From positions 149,264-213,263 of the forward strand of contig JAAUZC010000010.1 of assembly GCA_014804795.1 (NCBI GenBank): a stretch of 64,000 bases of DNA. Direction: 5' to 3'. The DNA comes from Lachnospiraceae bacterium (lineage in GTDB: Bacteria; Bacillota; Clostridia; Lachnospirales; Lachnospiraceae). Positions 14,092-53,002 of the stretch are shown here, piece by piece. A program made the translations under genes and the position numbers. Within the stretch, counting starts at the first letter, position 1, and every line of letters begins with the position of its first letter. Under the pieces are notes generated by a model. That model was not told the origin of the DNA, made no database searches, and saw only the letters and a program-made list of their open reading frames with translations.

Positions 14092-14139
14092 GCCAACCCG
14101 GTTTTTTGCGAGAAACATTCAGATTTTTCCAAATCCTGC

Positions 14140-14168
14140 TTGACATATAAAAACCGAACTTATATAAT
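14140..14168 (+). promoter_or_regulatory. Promoter of rplM-rpsI
   Basis: Consensus TTGACA (14140-14145), 17-bp spacer, TATAAT (14163-14168). The transcript has a leader of about 170 nt (14175-14345) with local stems such as ACAGGA/TCCTGT. An L13-type autoregulatory leader is possible but I cannot match its consensus by eye. Confidence 0.8.
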
Positions 14169-14345
14169 GTTTAACTGTGACAATACTTTTCAGTAGTTTG
14201 TCGGATTTTTGGCAGACTGTCTGGAAACAGGAGCGGATCGGTTTCCTGTCGGAGGCATGCGGCCCGGACATCCGTATGAAGAAGCGGAAAGCATCAGCTC
14301 GAGATAAGCCTTTGGAGTAACTTGATTTTGTATGGAGGAAACATG

Positions 14346-14774
14346 ATGAAAACATTTATGGCAAGTCCTGCTACGATCGACAGAAAATGGTACGTAGTGG
14401 ACGCTACAGATATGACACTTGGCCGTTTGGCATCTGAAATTGCAAAGGTGTTACGGGGAAAAAATAAACCCATCTTCACACCGCACATGGACACAGGCGA
14501 TTATGTGATCGTGGTAAATGCGGAGAAGATTAAAGTGACCGGTAAGAAACTGGATCAGAAGATTTACTATCGTCATTCCGATTATGTTGGCGGTATGAAA
14601 GAAACCAAATTAAAAGAGAAACTGGCTAAAAAGCCGGAGGAAGTAATTGAACTTGCTGTCAAAGGCATGCTTCCGAAAGGACCTTTAGGGAGACAGATGT
14701 ATAGGAAACTTTTTGTTTATGCAGGCCCGGATCACAAACACGCTGCACAGAAACCGGAAGTATTAACATTTTAA
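14346..14774 (+). CDS. rplM: 50S ribosomal protein L13
   Basis: 142 residues, the family length, with the L13 signatures [25 protein letters not shown] and [14 protein letters not shown]-like [13 protein letters not shown]. The second of two adjacent ATG codons (14346) is chosen because GGAGG then lies seven bases upstream. It forms a two-gene operon with rpsI. Confidence 0.96.
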
Positions 14775-14802
14775 CCAAAAGGACTGAAAGGAGAAGAGTA
14801 AA

Positions 14803-15201
14803 ATGGCTAAAGCGGCAAATAATTTTTACGGCACAGGTAGAAGAAAAAAATCAATTGCCAGAGTATATTTAAAACCCGGCAAAGGAAATATTACAATAAA
14901 TAAGCGCGACATTGACGACTATTTCGGACTGGAGACATTGAAAGTTATCGTTCGTCAGCCTCTGGCACTGACTGAGACAACAGACAAGTTTGATGTAGTT
15001 GTAACAGTAAAAGGCGGCGGTACAACAGGTCAGGCAGGTGCAATCAGACATGGCGTTGCAAGAGCGCTTCTGACAGTCGACAATGACTACAGACCTGCAC
15101 TCAAGAAAGCCGGCTATTTGACAAGAGACCCTCGTATGAAAGAGAGAAAGAAATATGGTCTCAAAGCGGCGAGACGCGCACCACAGTTTTCCAAGAGATA
15201 A
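14803..15201 (+). CDS. rpsI: 30S ribosomal protein S9
   Basis: 132 residues with the usual Y-G-T-G-R-R-K-x-S-I-A-R start and the conserved C terminus RRAPQFSKR, which contacts P-site tRNA. AAAGGAG precedes the ATG. The prophage begins in the sequence just after this gene. The 3' end of rpsI is a known integration site for mobile elements in Firmicutes. Confidence 0.97.
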
Positions 15202-20438: not shown

Positions 20439-21389
20439 GTGTGCAAAGTGAAAGGAAAGAAGAAAAAGAGGGGGATGGTGTTCGTTCCCTATGACTACGA
20501 GGCAGCGTTCAATAAGAGCATAGAGGACATTCATGAGTATTTCGTGGAGCAGATGCTCAAGAACAGATACAAGTGTGTATATGCCATGAAAGAGATCACA
20601 GCCGGAGAACAGTTTGAGATCGAAATATATCCGGAGTTCAAGACGATGGATGATGTTCCGGAGGCAGGCAGAATAAAGAGGGATAATTCAAAGGCACAAA
20701 AGAACCTCAACGACAAGAACTCAAGGAAGTATGTGGAACGCCTGCTCAATCATAATTTCGGAGATTCTGATATTTGGATAACTCTGACGTACAGTGCAGG
20801 GAATGAACCGAGAGACATGGCAGAGGCAATCCGGAACATGCAGAACTACATCCGGAGGATTGCATATCAGAGAAAAAAGAGAGGGTTGCCTCCGGTGAAA
20901 TACATATACATCACAGAGTATTCTCCGGAGCAGGAAATCAGATGGCATCATCATCTCGTGATGGACGGTCTGCTCGATATGGACACAGTTGAATCCACAT
21001 GGAAAAAGGGTCGCCGGAATGAAACGAGGAGGCTTGAGAAAGACGAACACGGTCTCACCGGAATGAGCATCTACATCACCAAAGAAAAGGACAGGAAAAA
21101 GGGAGAAAAGAGATGGAACTCCTCACAGAACCTCAAACAGTTCCGCGTCCGGAAAGTACATTCAAAGAGACCGACCGCGACATCCGGAACATACAAACCT
21201 ATTCAGAAGTATGTGGACGAATTTGTCAGAGATAGGGAGAACATCAGAGAGCAGATGCTCAAATGGTATCCGGACTATATTTTCACGGATTCCGGAGTAT
21301 ATTACAACGATTTCAACGGGATGTTTTACATCAGAGCAAGAATGAGACGGAGGAAAGAAAATGGAAAGACGGAGGAGGGAAAGACATAA
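20439..21389 (+). CDS. HUH endonuclease-like replication initiator (Rep)
   Basis: 316 residues. The three motifs of rolling-circle Rep proteins appear in order: motif I DIWITLTYS (111-119), motif II RWHHHLVMDG with the HUH histidines at 170-172, and motif III IYITKEK with a Tyr-x-x-Lys at 212-215. It should nick one strand through a tyrosine link. The start is uncertain: GTG 20439 or 20448, or ATG 20475. A 24-codon ORF at 20420-20494 with its own GGAGGGG overlaps the start and may couple translation. An HUH initiator in a large tailed phage is notable. Confidence 0.72.
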   Translation: MCKVKGKKKKRGMVFVPYDYEAAFNKSIEDIHEYFVEQMLKNRYKCVYAMKEITAGEQFEIEIYPEFKTMDDVPEAGRIKRDNSKAQKNLNDKNSRKYVERLLNHNFGDSDIWITLTYSAGNEPRDMAEAIRNMQNYIRRIAYQRKKRGLPPVKYIYITEYSPEQEIRWHHHLVMDGLLDMDTVESTWKKGRRNETRRLEKDEHGLTGMSIYITKEKDRKKGEKRWNSSQNLKQFRVRKVHSKRPTATSGTYKPIQKYVDEFVRDRENIREQMLKWYPDYIFTDSGVYYNDFNGMFYIRARMRRRKENGKTEEGKT

Positions 21390-23118: not shown

Positions 23119-23883
23119 ATGAAAACTATTGCAGTAATGTCTCCCAAAGGGGGCATCGGAAAGACCACAACATCGGACAGCATCGCCTATATTTTAGGCG
23201 AGGAGCAGGGAAAGAAAGTTTTAGTTATTGAGGGAGATCAGCAGGGCGACACCTCCGAGACATTCGGATGCTATGAGCCGGAGGGGATTGGAATGAGCGA
23301 ACTGATCGAGAATCATGTGAATGTCGGGGGCAGGTTCAAGACAACCGACCTCATAAGGGCGACAGAGTTCTCTCACATCGACATCATTCCGGCGAATGGA
23401 TATCTCATGCAGACGGACATGAATCTGCTCATGAAAAGCGAGGACGAACAGATTCACCGCTTGAGGAATGCGTTGCAGGAAGTGAATGAGGTATATGACT
23501 ATTGCATTTGTGATTGCGGCAGGCTTTTCGACATGGTGGTGATAAATATTCTTGTGGCAGCAGATGTCGTCATCGTTCCGGTAAAAGTCGGAGGGTATGA
23601 GGTGAAAGCCTTGCAGAGCATATCAGAACAGATCGGAGACATCAATCCGGACATAAAGGTCAAGGCAATTCTGACAATGAGACAGAAAAACAAGACATCA
23701 CTCGAATTTGAGGACTGGCTCAAAGACGCATCCGGATATGATGTGTTTGTCACTCCGGTGAGGCGGTCGGTAATTGCAGAGAGAGCGACGATCGCAATGC
23801 AGCCTCTCCCGAAGTTTTCACCTCGCTGCATAACATCGCAGGACTATCGAAACATTGTCCACGAACTCATGAGGGAGGTGTGA
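23119..23883 (+). CDS. ParA/Soj-like partition ATPase
   Basis: 254 residues. The deviant Walker A motif KGGIGKTT is at residues 10-17, and the switch regions include EGDQQGDTSETFG and ICDCGR. ParA proteins form ATP-dependent DNA-bound dimers that move ParB-DNA complexes. A ParB-like gene lies about 0.9 kb downstream, so the phage carries a partition-type module unusual for a purely integrating prophage. AGGAGGAAATG precedes the start. Confidence 0.88.
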   Translation: MKTIAVMSPKGGIGKTTTSDSIAYILGEEQGKKVLVIEGDQQGDTSETFGCYEPEGIGMSELIENHVNVGGRFKTTDLIRATEFSHIDIIPANGYLMQTDMNLLMKSEDEQIHRLRNALQEVNEVYDYCICDCGRLFDMVVINILVAADVVIVPVKVGGYEVKALQSISEQIGDINPDIKVKAILTMRQKNKTSLEFEDWLKDASGYDVFVTPVRRSVIAERATIAMQPLPKFSPRCITSQDYRNIVHELMREV

Positions 23884-23885
23884 AC

Positions 23886-24461
23886 ATGGGGAAAGTCGGG
23901 AAAATGGGGCATGAGGACTATCGTGCAAGGTATGAGAAACAGAAAGAAAGCGGTAGTTATTACGATGCAAATATGGAATATGATGAAAAATCCGACGTTC
24001 AATCCGGATCATGGGTATTGATTACAAGACAAGTTCCGGTTGCGGAGGAGTGCAAGCCTCACCTATTTGGAATATATTGGGGAATCCCAAAACAGGATAA
24101 GTTCGACAGGCAGATTTGCGTGATACACACGACGGAGGATGTGACGCTGCTCAATCATGAGTTTACAGTTTTAGACGACGAGAGATTGAAAACATATCGT
24201 GAGGAGGGGTGGGAACTCCGTGAAATAGGAGCAAAGGTCGAGCGCGGAATGAACATGGAGTTGATTGAAAAAGGCAGGTCGTTGAGCGAGGAGGAACGTG
24301 AGGTTATATGGGCATTACAACTTGATGGCTTATCTGAAGAACAGGCTTGCGAAGAATATTTTTTAACAAGGCATACGGAATATAACAACTTTTCGATTTG
24401 CTATATACCCAAAAAAGAGGTTTTCGACCAGTGTGTCGCAGCGTTTGGAATGAGATATTAA
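23886..24461 (+). CDS. Phage protein of unknown function
   Basis: 191 residues from ATG 23886 (GGGAGG upstream). Soluble, with a beta-rich middle (WVLITRQVPVAEECKPHLFGIYWGIPK) and acidic helices later (SLSEEEREVIWALQLDGLSEEQACEEYF). It sits between ParA and ParB genes but shows no known domain. Confidence 0.6.
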   Translation: MGKVGKMGHEDYRARYEKQKESGSYYDANMEYDEKSDVQSGSWVLITRQVPVAEECKPHLFGIYWGIPKQDKFDRQICVIHTTEDVTLLNHEFTVLDDERLKTYREEGWELREIGAKVERGMNMELIEKGRSLSEEEREVIWALQLDGLSEEQACEEYFLTRHTEYNNFSICYIPKKEVFDQCVAAFGMRY

Positions 24462-24497
24462 AAAGATTGAGCGCATAAAAGAACAGGAGGAATGATG

Positions 24498-24698
24498 ATG
24501 GAACGTAGACCTTTAATCATAATTAACACAGACAGTTATCCGACATTTTGCGATAACAAATGCGATAACAGTGAATGCAGCAAACACATCTCAAAAGCGG
24601 CTCACCATAGAGGTGGGTGTAAATTTTCAAAGTTGAGAGGCACAGACCGATGTGAGGGGTGTATTCCGAAACGGAGAAAAAAGAATGAGCAGGGATAA
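24498..24698 (+). CDS. Small cysteine/histidine-rich phage protein
   Basis: 66 residues. Of three adjacent ATG codons, the third (24498) is best spaced from AGGAGG. Cysteines and histidines (FCDNKCDNSEC...HH...C...CEGC) could bind zinc. Function unknown. Confidence 0.5.
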   Translation: MERRPLIIINTDSYPTFCDNKCDNSECSKHISKAAHHRGGCKFSKLRGTDRCEGCIPKRRKKNEQG

Positions 24699-24840
24699 AA
24701 GACCGAGGAGGCAAGACGGGTCACTGTTTCAGTTGTGTGAAAAGTGCAAAGTTGAGCCGGACAGGTGCAAAGGATTTTGCATATTTCAGAAATTGGAAGA
24801 AATAGAAAACAGGAGGAAAAACGATGGCGACAGGATATAG
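24685..24840 (+). CDS. Small cysteine-rich phage protein
   Basis: 51 residues from ATG 24685 (GGAG upstream). Basic N terminus, then the cluster CEKCKVEPDRCKGFC, a possible zinc knuckle. It overlaps both neighbours by 14-17 bp. Function unknown. Confidence 0.5.
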   Translation: MSRDKRPRRQDGSLFQLCEKCKVEPDRCKGFCIFQKLEEIENRRKNDGDRI

Positions 24841-26398
24841 TGTTATGGATGGTTTAAACAAGCGTACAAAGGCAGGGATTGACGACCCGACACCGAGAGC
24901 AAAGTTTCGGACAAAAGACCTCTCGATTTTTAAGATATACGCAAACGAGGGCAATTTCTATCCGCAGGAGGACATCGAGCAGAAAGCCGGAGAGATTCTT
25001 TCGATGGGGATGCTCGAAAATCTCGTCGTAAAATATGAGCCTGCGGAGGGAAAAGGCGAATACAAACTGATTTCCGGAGAAAGACGGTGGAGGGCGTTGC
25101 ACATGCTCGTCGATCGCGGCTATAAAGAGTTTGAGTTCGCAACATGCAATATAATCGCACCGACCACATCACAGGAGGAAAAGGTTGCGCTCATTATTGC
25201 CAACAGTCACCGCAGTAAAAGCATGGAGGTCATGATTCGAGAGGAGCAGGAACTCAAGGCGACGCTTGAGGACATGAAAGCGAATGGTATTGAATTAAAA
25301 GGCTATAACCTGCAATCCGGTCGCCTGCGTGATGTGATTGCGGAATTGCTCAATGTATCAAAGACAAAGATCGCGCAGATTGAGGCAGTCAGTAACAATT
25401 TGATTCCGGAGTTCATGGAGGAATTAAATAAAAAGCGTTTGACGTTCTCTGCTGCCTATGAGTTGAGTGGAATGTCATCAGATGAACAGAGGGAGGCATT
25501 GAGTGTCCTCATAGAGACAGGAGAACTCACCTATCAGAGAATCAAGGAGATGAAAGAGGAAAAAGCGGCAGAGGCAGCAGCACAGCAAATTGACGGACAA
25601 ATGAGCATGACGGACATGGAGCAGTCCGGAGACATGTCTCTTTCCCATCATGGAGATGTGACCGGAGAGGGAGAGCCGGAACGGGTGTCAGAATCAGACA
25701 CAGGGCAGCAGGACACAGGTTTTTCCGGAATGAATGAGCCGGGGGCAGCAGGTGAGGAATATCAGACACCGCATCCGGAGGGAATCACTTCTCTGTGCTA
25801 TTCCTGCACAAAATACGAGACTTGCAATGTAAAGACGGGAACATGCACCTCATGCGATCAGTATGAGAACAGGGCAGAGGCAAACAAGACGGAGGAGCAG
25901 AGATATTCAGAGGAGCAGGACGCGATTGACAAGGAGACACAGAGAAAACTCCGTGAAAAGGCAGACGAGGAACGGATGAACAATATTCCATCCGAAACCG
26001 GAGAGAACGGTCAGAAAGTGCATCAGATTCGCCTCGGAGAATCCTTTTTCGAGGATGCTTGCAGCAATATCAAGAGTTTTGAACTCCGGAAGAATGACAG
26101 GGGATATAAAAAGGGCGACATTCTTGAGTTGATGGAATTTGCAGACGGTCGGAACACTGGTCGATTTGTGAGGAAACTCGTGACATACATTCTTGAAGAT
26201 TACACCGGACTTGAGGACGGATTCTGCATCATGGCGACAGCACTTGTCGACAAAGACGATGAACCGTTGCAAAATGCAAATATAGGTCAGATATGCGCAA
26301 ATATAAGAGCAAACGGTGACGGGTACATCGACGGAGGAGAGGAGTTCATCTTGATCGAGAATGCTGTGAGCATTGTGCAAGACGGCGGCAGAGAATGA
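24824..26398 (+). CDS. ParB-like protein fused to a Cys cluster and an ASCH/DUF3850-like domain
   Basis: 524 residues. The N-terminal ParB nuclease/CTPase-like domain (about 40-130) carries ISGERRWRA, and an HTH region follows (SGRLRDVIAELLNVSKTKIAQIEAV). A low-complexity linker leads to a cysteine cluster (LCYSCTKYETCNVKTGTCTSC, about residues 320-345). The C-terminal segment HQIRLGESFFED...FELRKNDRGYKKGDILELMEF is a DUF3850/ASCH-type RNA-binding-like fold. This combination is unusual for a partition protein. GGAGG precedes the ATG. Confidence 0.8.
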   Translation: MATGYSVMDGLNKRTKAGIDDPTPRAKFRTKDLSIFKIYANEGNFYPQEDIEQKAGEILSMGMLENLVVKYEPAEGKGEYKLISGERRWRALHMLVDRGYKEFEFATCNIIAPTTSQEEKVALIIANSHRSKSMEVMIREEQELKATLEDMKANGIELKGYNLQSGRLRDVIAELLNVSKTKIAQIEAVSNNLIPEFMEELNKKRLTFSAAYELSGMSSDEQREALSVLIETGELTYQRIKEMKEEKAAEAAAQQIDGQMSMTDMEQSGDMSLSHHGDVTGEGEPERVSESDTGQQDTGFSGMNEPGAAGEEYQTPHPEGITSLCYSCTKYETCNVKTGTCTSCDQYENRAEANKTEEQRYSEEQDAIDKETQRKLREKADEERMNNIPSETGENGQKVHQIRLGESFFEDACSNIKSFELRKNDRGYKKGDILELMEFADGRNTGRFVRKLVTYILEDYTGLEDGFCIMATALVDKDDEPLQNANIGQICANIRANGDGYIDGGEEFILIENAVSIVQDGGRE

Positions 26399-45556: not shown

Positions 45557-46009
45557 ATGGCAACCGCAACAATCAGAATCAAAAAGGATACGACGGCGAA
45601 CTGGATTGCATCGGAGAGAGTGCTTGATGATGGCGAACTCGGTCTCGAAATTACCGAGGAGGGTCATCGCATTATCCGCGTCGGTGACGGGGTAAATGTA
45701 TTTATGGAATTGCCTGTCGCAGTAGACATCGAGGCAATCAATGAAATCAAGACCGGAATGGACACCAATGCAAAGAAGTATTACGAGGACATGGTGAGCA
45801 AGGGTGAGGAGATGCTCAAGAAGATGGAGCAGCAGGCGATCACGGTCGAGTTGCAGGACGACGAGACAAAGATTGATTACCGGATGGGGATTTCAAACGG
45901 TTCGCTCTATTTTGAGGAAATTGAGAAAAAGGCAGCAGTACCGGAGACCGGAGGCGGCGATTTAGCGGAGGAATCCGGAGGCGAAAATAATGAGGAGGTA
46001 GATGGATAA
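45557..46009 (+). CDS. Tail fibre-associated protein
   Basis: 150 residues. The N-terminal part RIKKDTTANWIASERVLDDGELGLEI...HRIIRVGDGVNVF is the short beta motif found at the start of many phage tail-fibre and hyaluronidase-like proteins. A coiled coil and an acidic tail follow. It overlaps the DGR target gene (TAATG), indicating a joint receptor-binding complex. Confidence 0.72.
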   Translation: MATATIRIKKDTTANWIASERVLDDGELGLEITEEGHRIIRVGDGVNVFMELPVAVDIEAINEIKTGMDTNAKKYYEDMVSKGEEMLKKMEQQAITVELQDDETKIDYRMGISNGSLYFEEIEKKAAVPETGGGDLAEESGGENNEEVDG

Positions 46010-47241
46010 TGGCAGCAGGAGACAGAATTTTCATGGCAAAGGAGGAAACGTCGCAGGAAATCCTTGCAAATACAAAGAAAATCCTTGCAGGTGCAGCGGA
46101 AAAGCCGAAACGGTACGGAATATGCATCAATTTAGCCGACAGCAATCCGGCGACGAGGGTGACATATCTGTATGATGCGGTCGGGATGACACCTGCAAAG
46201 ATGAATTTCACGGCAGGGATGTTTGACTATGGGGATTGGGGAGACATTTGGTTCGTCAGAGATAATCGTCCGGTCATGCTCAACAATGACGGAACGGTTG
46301 ACTATGAACTCAATCACGAGAACCATGCCCTCAAGCTGACAGGAGGAGCGAGCGACATCACATCCATTGCATACGCAGGAAATGCAATGTCGGAGATTCC
46401 TCTGATTTGGGTCAAGAGATACACGATCAAGAATTATCACTATGTGATTTTCTGCGAGACACAGTTTGATGAAACATATCACGCATACGCACACACAGAC
46501 GCAGACGGGAACATCCTGCCTGTGACATATTTCCCGATGTATGAGGGCAGCGTCACAAATAACCGGATGCGCTCTCTGTCCGGTCAGACAGTGTCGGCAA
46601 GCCTCACAGATGCGCAGGAGACAACGGCGGCGCAGCAGAACGGCGACAGGTGGGATAAACTCTCGTTTTCGGAGTGCAATCTCATGTATGAAATGTGCAC
46701 TATGATCTCAAAGAGCACGAACTCACAGGCGGCATTCGGTGCAGGATGTAGCAATGCAACCGATTTCCTCAAGACCGGAACGATGAACGGTCTCGGTCAG
46801 TTCTATGGATACAGTGGCGCGACAAACGGAGTGAAACTGTTCTATTGTGAGAACTTTTTCGGAAATTACTGGAAAAGGATTCGCGGTCTGATAAATGACA
46901 ACGGCATCATCAAGGTGAAGTTTGTGCCGCCGTATGACAGCACCGGAGCAGGATATATCAACACAGGCGTGACACCGTCCGGAACATCCGGAGGATATAT
47001 CAACAAGATGGAGATGACAGACGGAGGTCGGATTCCTGCGGTTGCATCCGGAAGTGAGACGACGTATGAGTGCGATGGTTTTTGGTTCAATAACGGACAG
47101 GTCGATGTTGCCCTGTTTGGCGGCAGCCGCAGCCGTGGCACGAAGTGCGGCGTGTCGTGCTGGGGTTTGAGCAACCTTGCGACGCACGTGGACGCGAACG
47201 TCGGGGCGAGCCTTTCTTGCAAACCGCCTGTAGCCGCGTAG
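46009..47241 (+). CDS. DGR-diversified tail tip / receptor-binding protein
   Basis: 410 residues. The C-terminal 40 or so residues (from about 367) are encoded by the variable repeat. Upstream, GLGQFYGYSG...LFYCENFFGNYWKRIRGL and ECDGFWFNNGQVDVALFGG resemble C-type-lectin/formylglycine-enzyme-like folds that display DGR variable residues. It lies at the end of the baseplate genes, where receptor-binding proteins are found. Retrohoming would rewrite up to about a dozen codons and could change host range. The N-terminal part (to about 45) probably docks on the preceding fibre proteins. Confidence 0.9.
   Translation: MAAGDRIFMAKEETSQEILANTKKILAGAAEKPKRYGICINLADSNPATRVTYLYDAVGMTPAKMNFTAGMFDYGDWGDIWFVRDNRPVMLNNDGTVDYELNHENHALKLTGGASDITSIAYAGNAMSEIPLIWVKRYTIKNYHYVIFCETQFDETYHAYAHTDADGNILPVTYFPMYEGSVTNNRMRSLSGQTVSASLTDAQETTAAQQNGDRWDKLSFSECNLMYEMCTMISKSTNSQAAFGAGCSNATDFLKTGTMNGLGQFYGYSGATNGVKLFYCENFFGNYWKRIRGLINDNGIIKVKFVPPYDSTGAGYINTGVTPSGTSGGYINKMEMTDGGRIPAVASGSETTYECDGFWFNNGQVDVALFGGSRSRGTKCGVSCWGLSNLATHVDANVGASLSCKPPVAA
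47108..47218 (+). other. DGR variable repeat (VR)
   Basis: 111 bp at the 3' end of the target gene, collinear with the template repeat at an offset of 345. There are 13 differences: 12 are at TR adenines (A to G, C or T) and one is T to G at 47152. Changed codons turn Asn, Tyr, Ile and Gln of the template into Ser, Arg, Cys, Gly, Ser, His, Asp, Val and Leu. The last invariant block (CGGGGCGAGCC, then TCTT) is where the initiation-of-homing region should lie. Confidence 0.96.
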
Positions 47242-47305
47242 CGGCAGAGGGGGAACGGGGGAGTCTCCTCCCCCGAAAAGGGAGGTTCGGAGGGTTTACC
47301 CTCCG
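47233..47305 (+). other. Hairpins downstream of VR
   Basis: Three stems follow the variable repeat. GCCGC/GCGGC (47233-47245) spans the stop codon. An 8-bp stem with a TCTC loop (47256-47275) comes next, then a 7-bp stem with a TTTA loop (47288-47305) followed by a T-rich run. The middle one copies the 8-bp stem and 4-nt loop known to promote retrohoming in the Bordetella phage DGR. The last can act as terminator of the tail operon. Confidence 0.75.
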
Positions 47306-47323
47306 ATATCTCCGGTTTTTAGC

Positions 47324-47355
47324 ATTTCCACGATATTGGAAACAGCAGATAGAAT
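47324..47355 (+). promoter_or_regulatory. Dyad-controlled promoter of the DGR template/RT unit
   Basis: TTTCCA-CGATAT-TGGAAA (47325-47342) followed by TAGAAT (47350-47355). The -10 box begins 25 bp after the dyad start, exactly as at 17417-17447 in the lysogeny region. The predicted RNA starts near 47362, about 90 nt before TR, and runs through TR and the reverse transcriptase gene. Confidence 0.7.
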
Positions 47356-47452
47356 CGACACAAAACAGAAAAATCGTGGTAGAATTTGCAGCGTAATTTT
47401 ACCGACGACCCAAAACAGTGAGGATAAAATGAGGGGGTTCGACGAGCGACCC

Positions 47453-47563
47453 TTGCCCTGTTTGGCGGCAACCGCAGCAATGGCACGAAGTGCGGCTTGT
47501 CGTACTGGAATTTGAACAACCTTGCGACGAACGTGAACGCGAACATCGGGGCGAGCCAATCTT
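47453..47563 (+). other. DGR template repeat (TR)
   Basis: 111 bp of non-coding template, rich in AAC/AAT triplets placed in register with the target reading frame (26 adenines in all). Read in that frame it would encode an Asn-rich version of the VR peptide and stops soon after at TGA 47569. It is followed by 142 nt of spacer before the reverse transcriptase gene, the length of the structured spacer needed for cDNA priming in the Bordetella system. Confidence 0.96.
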
Positions 47564-47569
47564 ATCAAT

Positions 47570-47596
47570 GACGGAGCATTTAATCAAATGCTCGTC
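47570..47596 (+). other. Hairpin directly 3' of TR
   Basis: GAGCATTT (47574-47581) pairs with AAATGCTC (47586-47593) around AATC, extended by GAC/GTC with one bulged G. A second stem GACGT/ACGTC follows near 47612-47628. They may form the structured part of the DGR RNA bound by the reverse transcriptase. Confidence 0.65.
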
Positions 47597-47705
47597 GTTC
47601 TCCTACACCGCAGGACGTTGAGACACGTCTATTGAGTGGAAATCATACCGCAGCAGGCAGGGTCTAGTAAGTGATACCGAAAGACCTTGAGGTGATAAGA
47701 AAGAA

Positions 47706-49004
47706 ATGGGAAAGAAATCCGTCAATAACCTGTATAAGCCTATGCTTGAGCATAGCAACGTCGAGAAAATGTTCCACAATGCAGCAAAGGGAAAGACCGA
47801 GCGACCGGATGTCGCAAAGATTCTCAAGCCGGAAAACCTCGACGGACATGTGAAATTCCTCATTGAACAGTTGGAGAATACCGCGCCGGAGGGGATGGTT
47901 GTCCTGCATCCGGAAAGCGCGTGGCATCCGGCAAGACATGCAAAGCAGAGAATCAATGAGGGGTCGTCAAAAAAGACAAGAGACATCGAAAAGCCTCGCT
48001 ATAATTACGAGCAGGTCGTCCATCACTGCGTCATCAATGGATGTAAAGATATTATGATGCAGGGCATGTATGGTTTAGTGTGTGGGAGCATTCCGGAACG
48101 CGGTGCGCACTACGGAAAGAAGTACATCGAGAGATGGATTCACGGAGACATAAGGAACTGCAAATATGTTCTGAAAATGGACATCCGACACTTTTATGAA
48201 TCCGTCGATCATGACATTCTCAAAGAGTGGATTGCATCGAAAATCCGAGACAAGAGAATGCTGAATCTGATCTATTTAATCATAGACGGATGCGAGCAGG
48301 GGTTGCCGTTGGGATTTGTGACATCACAGTGGTTTTCAAATTTCATGTTGCAGCCGCTCGACCACTACATCAAAGAGGAATTACACGCGGCGCATTATGT
48401 CCGGTACATGGATGACATGGTGATTTTCGGAAGAAACAAAAAGGAACTGCACCGGATGCAGCAGGCGATCGAGGTCTATCTGAATGAGCGTTTTCACCTG
48501 CTAATGAAATACAATCATCAAGTATTCAGATTCGATTATATCGAAAGGAAAACCGGAAAGAGGAAAGGTCGACCGCTTGATTTCATGGGATTCCAATTCT
48601 ATCACGATAAGACTATTTTGAGGGAATCCATCATGTTGAGCACGACGAGGAAAGCGAACCGGATGGCAAAGAAAGACCGGATAACATGGTATGATGCGAC
48701 GGTGATGCTCTCGTACATGGGATACATAGACCACACGGACACATACGACATGTACCTGCAAAGGATAAAGCCGAATGTGAACGTGAAGAAACTAAAAAAG
48801 TTAGTGAGCAAGCATTCAAAGAGAGAGGAGAGAAAGAAACGTGAAAGAATGGAGAACAGTGTTCGGAACGGAGGCGGTGATGCCGGAGGAGTTCGACACA
48901 ACCTCGTCTCCGGAAACGGTATATCAGAGACGGAACATCAAGGAAGTGGAAAAGACCGAGGAGGACGGGAAAAAAGTGACCGGATGGGAGCGAGAGGAGC
49001 GTGA
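47706..49004 (+). CDS. DGR reverse transcriptase
   Basis: 432 residues. The palm motif YMDD is at 234-237. Motif 4 reads LPLGFVTSQ (200-208), the form typical of DGR enzymes rather than the QGxxxSP of group II introns. The catalytic motif KMDIRHFYESVD comes earlier. It copies the template RNA with errors at adenines. From about residue 379 the ORF overlaps the next gene in another frame and is low-complexity, basic and glycine-rich, so the functional enzyme probably ends near there. No separate Avd accessory gene is seen beside it. GAGGTG lies upstream. Confidence 0.95.
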   Translation: MGKKSVNNLYKPMLEHSNVEKMFHNAAKGKTERPDVAKILKPENLDGHVKFLIEQLENTAPEGMVVLHPESAWHPARHAKQRINEGSSKKTRDIEKPRYNYEQVVHHCVINGCKDIMMQGMYGLVCGSIPERGAHYGKKYIERWIHGDIRNCKYVLKMDIRHFYESVDHDILKEWIASKIRDKRMLNLIYLIIDGCEQGLPLGFVTSQWFSNFMLQPLDHYIKEELHAAHYVRYMDDMVIFGRNKKELHRMQQAIEVYLNERFHLLMKYNHQVFRFDYIERKTGKRKGRPLDFMGFQFYHDKTILRESIMLSTTRKANRMAKKDRITWYDATVMLSYMGYIDHTDTYDMYLQRIKPNVNVKKLKKLVSKHSKREERKKRERMENSVRNGGGDAGGVRHNLVSGNGISETEHQGSGKDRGGREKSDRMGARGA

Positions 49005-52863: not shown

Positions 52864-52944
52864 AACGGCTCGAAAATGCTGAAAAATGAGGGTTTGAAAC
52901 TATCCAAGAGTTAGGCAGTTATCTGCGAACAAAGACGCATATAC

Positions 52945-52978
52945 AAAGCCCCGAATGCTTGCATTCAAGGGGCTTTTG
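52945..52978 (+). terminator. Terminator at the right prophage junction
   Basis: AAAGCCCC (52945-52952) pairs with GGGGCTTT (52969-52976), and an inner GAATG/CATTC stem lies inside. A T-rich tail follows. It ends the lysis operon or, if integration was at the end of rpsI, is the displaced host rpsI terminator. Confidence 0.75.
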
Positions 52979-52980
52979 TT

Positions 52981-53002
52981 ATGCAAATTTGTTCCTTGTG
53001 TC
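52981..53002. repeat. Right copy of the imperfect terminal repeat
   Basis: Partner of 15347-15370: ATGCAAAT and TTCCTTGTGTC are both kept, with one substitution and a 2-nt gap between. It also forms the upstream half of the promoter for the next gene. Confidence 0.45.

Follow-up and report, generated by a model that had tools for sequence, protein, structure and literature searches.

A diversity-generating retroelement in a Lachnospiraceae prophage and a predicted helix between its template repeat and the start of its reverse transcriptase gene

In a stretch of 64,000 nucleotides (nt) from a Lachnospiraceae bacterium (the window), a phage tail gene, two similar repeats, and a reverse transcriptase (RT) gene lie side by side. 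This locus raises the question of whether it is a diversity-generating retroelement (DGR) that has rewritten its tail gene and, if so, what distinguishes the repeat that serves as template from the repeat that is changed. DGRs allow fast change of phage host-binding tips and are abundant in gut phages. Their mechanism is mostly known from one phage, which depends on the accessory protein Avd. Our analysis revealed an ordinary DGR of known class, and the part deserving description is a helix predicted to close its template RNA.

The template and variable repeats

A repeat search recovered, unprompted, a 111-nt repeat pair with 88% identity and a spacing of 345. The pair and the two genes that it connects are arranged as follows.

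46009-47241, + strand: target gene, encoding a tail protein of 410 amino acids (aa; PHROG 5302, E 3.5e-119), with the variable repeat at its 3' end
47108-47218, + strand: variable repeat (VR; repeat D1), with 13 differences from the template repeat, 12 of them at template adenines
47453-47563, + strand: template repeat (TR), from the repeat search and a position-by-position comparison with the VR
47706-49004, + strand: DGR reverse transcriptase, 432 aa, with YMDD, LGFVTSQ, and matches to RVT_1 and PHROG 1423

The TR and the VR were collinear. TR adenines accounted for 12 of the 13 differences, whereas none of the differences fell on a VR adenine; this excess is highly significant (hypergeometric p 2.8e-8, with adenine at 26 of the 111 TR positions). 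The count had been reported in the initial annotation of this DNA and was reproduced position by position. The changes at adenines comprised eight A>G, two A>C, and two A>T, and the single non-adenine difference was a T>G at 47497 in the TR and 47152 in the VR. The annotation had interpreted all 12 adenine changes, resolved to G, C, or T, as the signature of mutagenesis. This interpretation was upheld for ten of them (eight to G and two to C) but not for those to T, both of which belong to an AA>TT pair (47558-47559 in the TR and 47213-47214 in the VR). The pair did not vary among the eight close-group VRs, namely those of the window and of L002, L003, L004, L035, L081, L141, and L142 (L numbers denote the relative loci, and G numbers the relative genomes, that were compared with the window). 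Because the pair is common to all eight, 10 differences rather than 12 count as mutagenesis, and after its removal, TR adenines accounted for 10 of the 11 remaining differences.

The TR contained the in-register AAC and AAT codons that had been described for it. By codon count only, approximately 3.4e13 proteins would be reachable from its 23 body adenines. A 63-base A-masked pattern, allowing at most 3 mismatches, matched only the TR and the VR in the window's own genome (a draft, 95% complete), and thus no further VR copies were found there.

The RT carried both motifs ascribed to it, YMDD and LGFVTSQ, the latter of which we take to be a DGR-type RT motif. Its reading frame was intact, and it matched RVT_1 (E 2.9e-15) and PHROG 1423, Reverse transcriptase. 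By sequence, its best solved chain was 8ub7_A, labeled 'Reverse transcriptase' (E 6.1e-18), from a series that presumably represents the Bordetella DGR enzyme. The own genome encoded a single RT matching that of the window. Readings of the gene as a group II intron, retron, or defence RT were rejected, all nine NCBIfam matches being under their cut-offs. PADLOC gave 84 matches without cut-offs, and among the 25 matches listed, all were RT-domain proteins.

The 3' end of the target gene, where the VR had been placed, comprised the following features, with 23 nt between the end of the VR and the end of the gene.

47201-47212, + strand: GC-rich stretch common to the TR and the VR, with one unchanged adenine; a candidate (GC)14-like element
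47213-47230, + strand: candidate initiation of mutagenic homing (IMH) site, with fixed TT...TTGCAAACCGCC in the VR versus AA...TTATC in the TR

We read the AA>TT pair as a fixed mark of the IMH/IMH* type, and because it is fixed in all eight close VRs, the VR tail seems not to be rewritten. The GC-rich stretch is a candidate for the homing boundary.

Pfam gave no match for the target protein at E values up to 0.1. A profile built from 64 homologues matched 5vf4_A, which we take to be a Thermus DGR variable protein; the whole-chain E of 8.1e-5 arose from three collinear stretches, none of which was by itself better than E 0.6, the value of the C-terminal stretch. The same profile matched Mtd (1yu4_A) with E 0.029. 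These weak profile matches lend modest support to a C-type-lectin fold, which the C-terminus may adopt. The tip probably binds a host receptor. A separate small gene lies directly upstream of the target gene, and in many relatives the target genes are longer.

45557-46009, + strand: small gene with an Mtd_N-like N-terminus (E 4.2e-5; 23.8 bits, under the cut-off of 26.3)

Two hairpins follow the VR.

47256-47275, unstranded: hairpin 1, 8-bp stem, loop TCTC, starting 37 nt after the VR
47287-47306, unstranded: hairpin 2, 8-bp stem, loop TTTA, starting 68 nt after the VR

Hairpin 1 is the 8-bp stem with a 4-nt loop that had already been noticed, and hairpin 2 had gone unmentioned. Perfect stems of at least 7 bp with loops of 3-5 nt occurred at most 110 nt from the VR in 43 of 101 loci, compared with 33 of 2020 mononucleotide shuffles; the remaining 58 loci had none. 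The loop of hairpin 1 varied between close relatives. Hairpin 2 was located at +66 to +73 after the VR in all six loci compared (the window, L002, L003, L004, L035, and L081), with the TTTA loop in five. For other phage DGRs, PMC3240598 gives as a rule a GC-rich hairpin of 7-10 bp with a 5'-GRNA loop, 4-34 bp after the VR, and describes the GRNA loop as critical in Bordetella phage BPP-1. The window's stems agree with this rule; the loops TCTC and TTTA do not fit it, and the distances are 37 and 68 nt.

The DGR-type RT, the adenine-specific differences between the repeats, the 3'-terminal VR in a tail protein gene, and the hairpins after the VR place the element in the DGR class. On this sequence evidence, we are confident that it is a DGR that has diversified its VR. 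Divergence of the repeats by ordinary point mutation or recombination, without retrohoming, can be practically dismissed, being contradicted by the adenine excess, by the same adenine pattern in L004, L035, L141, and L142, and by the adjacent DGR-type RT.

Diversification among relatives and present activity

The initial annotation anticipated that, in related genomes, VRs would vary at TR adenines while the TR stayed fixed. VRs varied mainly at TR adenines, and the TR was near-fixed: those of L004 and L035 equaled the window TR except for one non-A base. Compared with the window, the VR of L004 had 16 differences, 15 of them at TR adenines, and that of L035 had 15, of which 14 were at TR adenines. 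The differences between TR and VR fell on adenines in 16 of 16 cases in L141 and in 14 of 14 in L142. In the target gene of L004, 64 synonymous and 17 nonsynonymous codon changes were found among the 372 codons outside the VR, versus 1 and 10 among the 38 codons inside it; the corresponding numbers for L035 were 61 and 21 outside and 1 and 10 inside.

We further compared VR pairs sharing a TR (at least 98% identity). Body adenines differed in 333 of 598 comparisons, whereas tail adenines, defined as those that were non-A in at least one VR, differed in 0 of 16; these pairs are non-independent, and L085 was excluded for an indel. Because the search for TR/VR pairs is biased toward adenine differences and only loci with a pair at 75% or more such differences were retained (103 of 118), the pooled adenine counts do not provide independent evidence. 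Across the retained pairs and the window, differences were present at 48 of 8669 non-A sites.

A side observation concerns the non-adenine differences in 97 distinct TR/VR pairs, counted over the TR body without its first 5 and its last 30 bases. T>G made up 12 of the 21, with one T>C and one T>A. This excess is unlike the transition bias expected from ordinary mutation, and the lone non-adenine difference in the window is also a T>G.

The exact 39-base TR pattern had no match in viral contigs, because it holds a T found only in the window. A 30-base TR sub-pattern retrieved the L035 and L004 contigs again and nothing else, and a 30-base spacer pattern retrieved the L004 contig only.

These comparisons indicate that the VR is diversified in nature at a near-fixed TR; they are no proof of present activity. 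The description of the element as apparently active therefore holds only in the sense of VR diversification among relatives. Weighing against a working element, the RT of L035, which is 95% like that of the window, has an internal deletion followed by stops, and the L035 spacer carries an insertion; this loss may reflect decay or a contig misassembly. A DGR that was once active and is now silent or dead in the window's prophage would account for such a relative, for the L035 VR differing from the L004 VR at just two adenine sites, and for the region 46900-47760, where scans found a single promoter-like site against 0.6 expected and no terminators against 0.9. These counts are at chance level, and no claim is built on them. 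Such silencing nevertheless appears unlikely for the window itself, in which the RT and target frames are open, the helix described below is perfect, and a single non-adenine difference separates the TR from the VR beyond the fixed pair. Separately, in the region of the broken L035 RT (L035:1780-2745), the ends of the spacer insertion resemble inverted repeats.

The spacer RNA and its closing helix

The region between the TR and the RT gene matched two RT-associated RNA families, one of them under its cut-off, and together with the end of the TR it contained the following elements.

47604-47702, + strand: structured spacer RNA (RT-4 match 47604-47700; RT-18 match 47624-47702)
47560-47567, + strand: 5' strand of helix P1, TCTTATCA, the TR-specific tail (IMH*-like), from covariation
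47693-47700, + strand: 3' strand of P1, TGATAAGA, directly upstream of the RT start codon, from covariation
47658-47689, + strand: covarying helix P3 (strands 47658-47664 and 47683-47689)
47689-47692, + strand: Shine-Dalgarno-like GAGG of the RT gene, between P3 and P1, from the sequence

The spacer reached the gathering cut-off of Rfam RT-18 (RF03021; 42.3 versus 41.3 bits) and remained under that of RT-4 (RF03025; 69.1 versus 73.5 bits, E 1.1e-10). Ten relatives divided into two at the cut-off of RT-4, three at that of RT-18, and five at neither. In P1, the end of the TR pairs with the 3' end of the spacer, between the Shine-Dalgarno-like GAGG and the ATG of the RT gene.

An initial alignment of 28 sequences contained 18 pairs in three helices, 13 of which showed two-sided changes. 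The RNA model built from this alignment had 72 matches among 86 sources (drawn from the window and 138 loci), 28 of these having trained the model. In the 70 distinct rows, 96.2% of cells were paired, two-sided changes were present in 18 of 18 pairs, and 0 of 500 shuffles scored as high; the covariation score was 0.648, compared with at most 0.103 when the partners were slid. P1 alone was 96.7% paired, with two-sided changes in all seven of its pairs, and changes preserving it were seen in L021, L038, L042, L048, and L082. When the TR tail and the aligned VR tail were compared as the 5' strand of P1 (2 of the 72 rows being dropped for want of a VR), 467 of 483 cells were paired for the TR and 311 of 483 for the VR; the TR was better in 68 of the 70 loci and equal in 2. 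The minimum-energy and centroid folds of the window both contained P1.

Several results weigh against this picture. The RNA model failed to match 14 of the 86 sources, including BPP-1 and L080. The 72-row alignment had been fitted to the structure, with 28 rows coming from the training set of the model. On its own, the window's spacer gave no more stable a fold than shuffled sequences (z -1.13; 26 of 200 shuffles did as well), and the case for the RNA thus rests on covariation. A cruder comparison of tails with spacers was mixed, the TR being better in 31, equal in 13, and worse in 17 of 61; we think that pyrimidine-rich VR tails match the purine-rich spacer by chance. In BPP-1 (L138), the strongest pairing with the spacer comes from the VR tail (9 bp) rather than the TR tail (5 bp), and P1 therefore need not be the priming duplex. 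The last base of the 9-base complement of the VR tail in the BPP-1 spacer should be the known priming adenine. We consider P1 very probably a real RNA helix, and a role for it in priming about as likely as not.

An alternative is that the helix between tail and spacer serves just RNA stability or the control of RT translation, with priming elsewhere in the spacer. BPP-1 primes from an internal adenine of its spacer, according to PMC12875486, and P1 lies between the Shine-Dalgarno-like sequence and the start codon in most rows. By counts made without a chance control, a Shine-Dalgarno-like tetramer was located just before or within the 3' strand of P1 in 61 of 72 rows, and a start codon followed P1 within 20 nt in 55 of 72. 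In six rows (L048, L062, L079, L096, L102, and L103), the RT start was farther off, behind a second AGGAG downstream of P1, and translation control by P1 would thus not be common to all; L048 is an RT-4 case. Against this alternative, P1 is made by the template's own 3' end, which forms it better than the VR does in nearly all loci. We regard the alternative as somewhat short of an even chance.

The initial annotation called the DGR complete. This holds with the reservation that no Avd gene was detected in the window or its own genome. Neither the gap between the target gene and the TR (211 nt) nor that between the TR and the RT (142 nt) has room for an Avd gene the size of that in BPP-1 (128 aa). 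A search with BPP-1 Avd against 10,395 frames of at least 50 aa, from the window and the loci, recovered itself, L080 strongly, and, in the distant loci L112, L115, and L116 (RT 23-25% identical), four frames with E values between 1e-7 and 3e-5; it retrieved no frame in the window, and the own genome yielded only a match of E 0.03 with stops. The bAvd family PF22296 matched its positive controls, BPP-1 and L080, and none of 12 other records or genomes (some of them fragments); it had no match in the own genome, and the 14 controls run with that search gave none. PF05635 did not match in the own genome, although its control matched nowhere either. A divergent Avd-like partner may be present.

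We propose that a transcript of the TR, spacer, and RT gene folds such that the last TR bases pair with the 3' end of the spacer in P1, closing the RNA around the covarying inner helix. The RT would act on this folded RNA without a detectable Avd, cDNA synthesis would start beside the TR tail, the candidate priming place, and the TR would be copied with errors opposite adenines. The cDNA would then replace the VR up to the GC-rich stretch. Past this stretch, the tails of the TR and VR differ: the TR would form P1 best and therefore serve as the template, whereas the VR, which has hairpins and a 3' tail of its own, would be rewritten as the target. The outcome would be a varied tip of the tail protein. 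Because P1 lies between the Shine-Dalgarno-like sequence and the start codon, it may also compete with RT translation.

We offer tentatively, as a possibility we would not favour on present evidence, that throughout a broad group of phage DGRs without Avd, the helix between the TR tail and the RT start has three effects: it would distinguish the TR as template from the VR as target, define the priming duplex, and stop RT production after folding of the template RNA, such that hypermutation would be self-limiting; in that case, RT-4 and RT-18 would represent template RNAs of DGRs. If functional, the DGR group of the window dispenses with any detectable Avd and uses another kind of template RNA, and its covarying TR-tail helix would provide a simple rule for a fixed template and a changing target. 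It also suggests a role for RT-4 and RT-18, Rfam families named merely as RT-associated. In the open-access literature searched, no papers on RT-4 or RT-18 were found by family name and accession, and within that literature the covarying TR-tail helix and its location over the RT start may be unreported.

Prophage setting and known systems

The cassette is carried by a prophage, as had been proposed.

15190-52910, unstranded: prophage carrying the cassette, approximately 37.7 kb, with ends from the empty site in one same-genus genome

Its genes include those for an integrase, terminase, portal, head protease, major head protein, major tail protein, tape measure, and endolysin. In the empty site L161 (G007), the sequences corresponding to 14122-15201 and 52903-52994 of the window adjoin with a 12-nt overlap. 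The core TCCAAGAG is common to both prophage ends and has one mismatch in the empty site. A second relative, L162, matched ambiguously on the right-hand side, in the opposite orientation. The assignment of the host to Lachnospiraceae was supported by the family shared with a related genome. ParA-like and ParB-like partition genes (23119-26398) were also present within this integrase-bearing prophage, near a replication initiator gene (20439-21389).

The DGR of BPP-1 (mtd, avd, and brt) resembles that of the window in the order of target gene, TR, and RT, in the 3'-terminal VR of a tail protein gene, in adenine-specific differences, and in its fixed TR/VR tail differences, the hairpin after the VR, and a structured spacer. 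It differs in possessing Avd, for which no gene was detected in the window. The BPP-1 spacer belongs to Rfam Phage_DGR, whereas that of the window is an RT-18 near RT-4; the window has two hairpins with loops other than GRNA; and the BPP-1 RT has 328 aa compared with 432 aa, the window's RT having approximately 70 more residues after the shared part. The pairing of the TR tail with the 3' end of the spacer was not seen in BPP-1.

Butyrivibrio phage Idris has an RT 47% identical to that of the window, TR/VR differences at adenines in 17 of 17 cases, and a match to the same RNA model, and no Avd was found in its whole record. Its target gene is longer (L120 4051-5622), and its record labels the products no further than hypothetical proteins and a putative reverse transcriptase. 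Phage Arawn has an RT with 52% identity to that of the window. The prophage DGR of Blautia luti (L081) has an RT and target 75% identical, a similar layout, the same P1, and the fixed TT, and differs in TR sequence and VR state. DGRs of gut Firmicutes phages are well described in PMC8144416 and PMC11792537. The Faecalibacterium prophage DGRs, as covered in the latter, likewise reside in gut Firmicutes prophages; two were active by sequencing reads, and some have two VRs, in contrast to the single VR in the window's genome.

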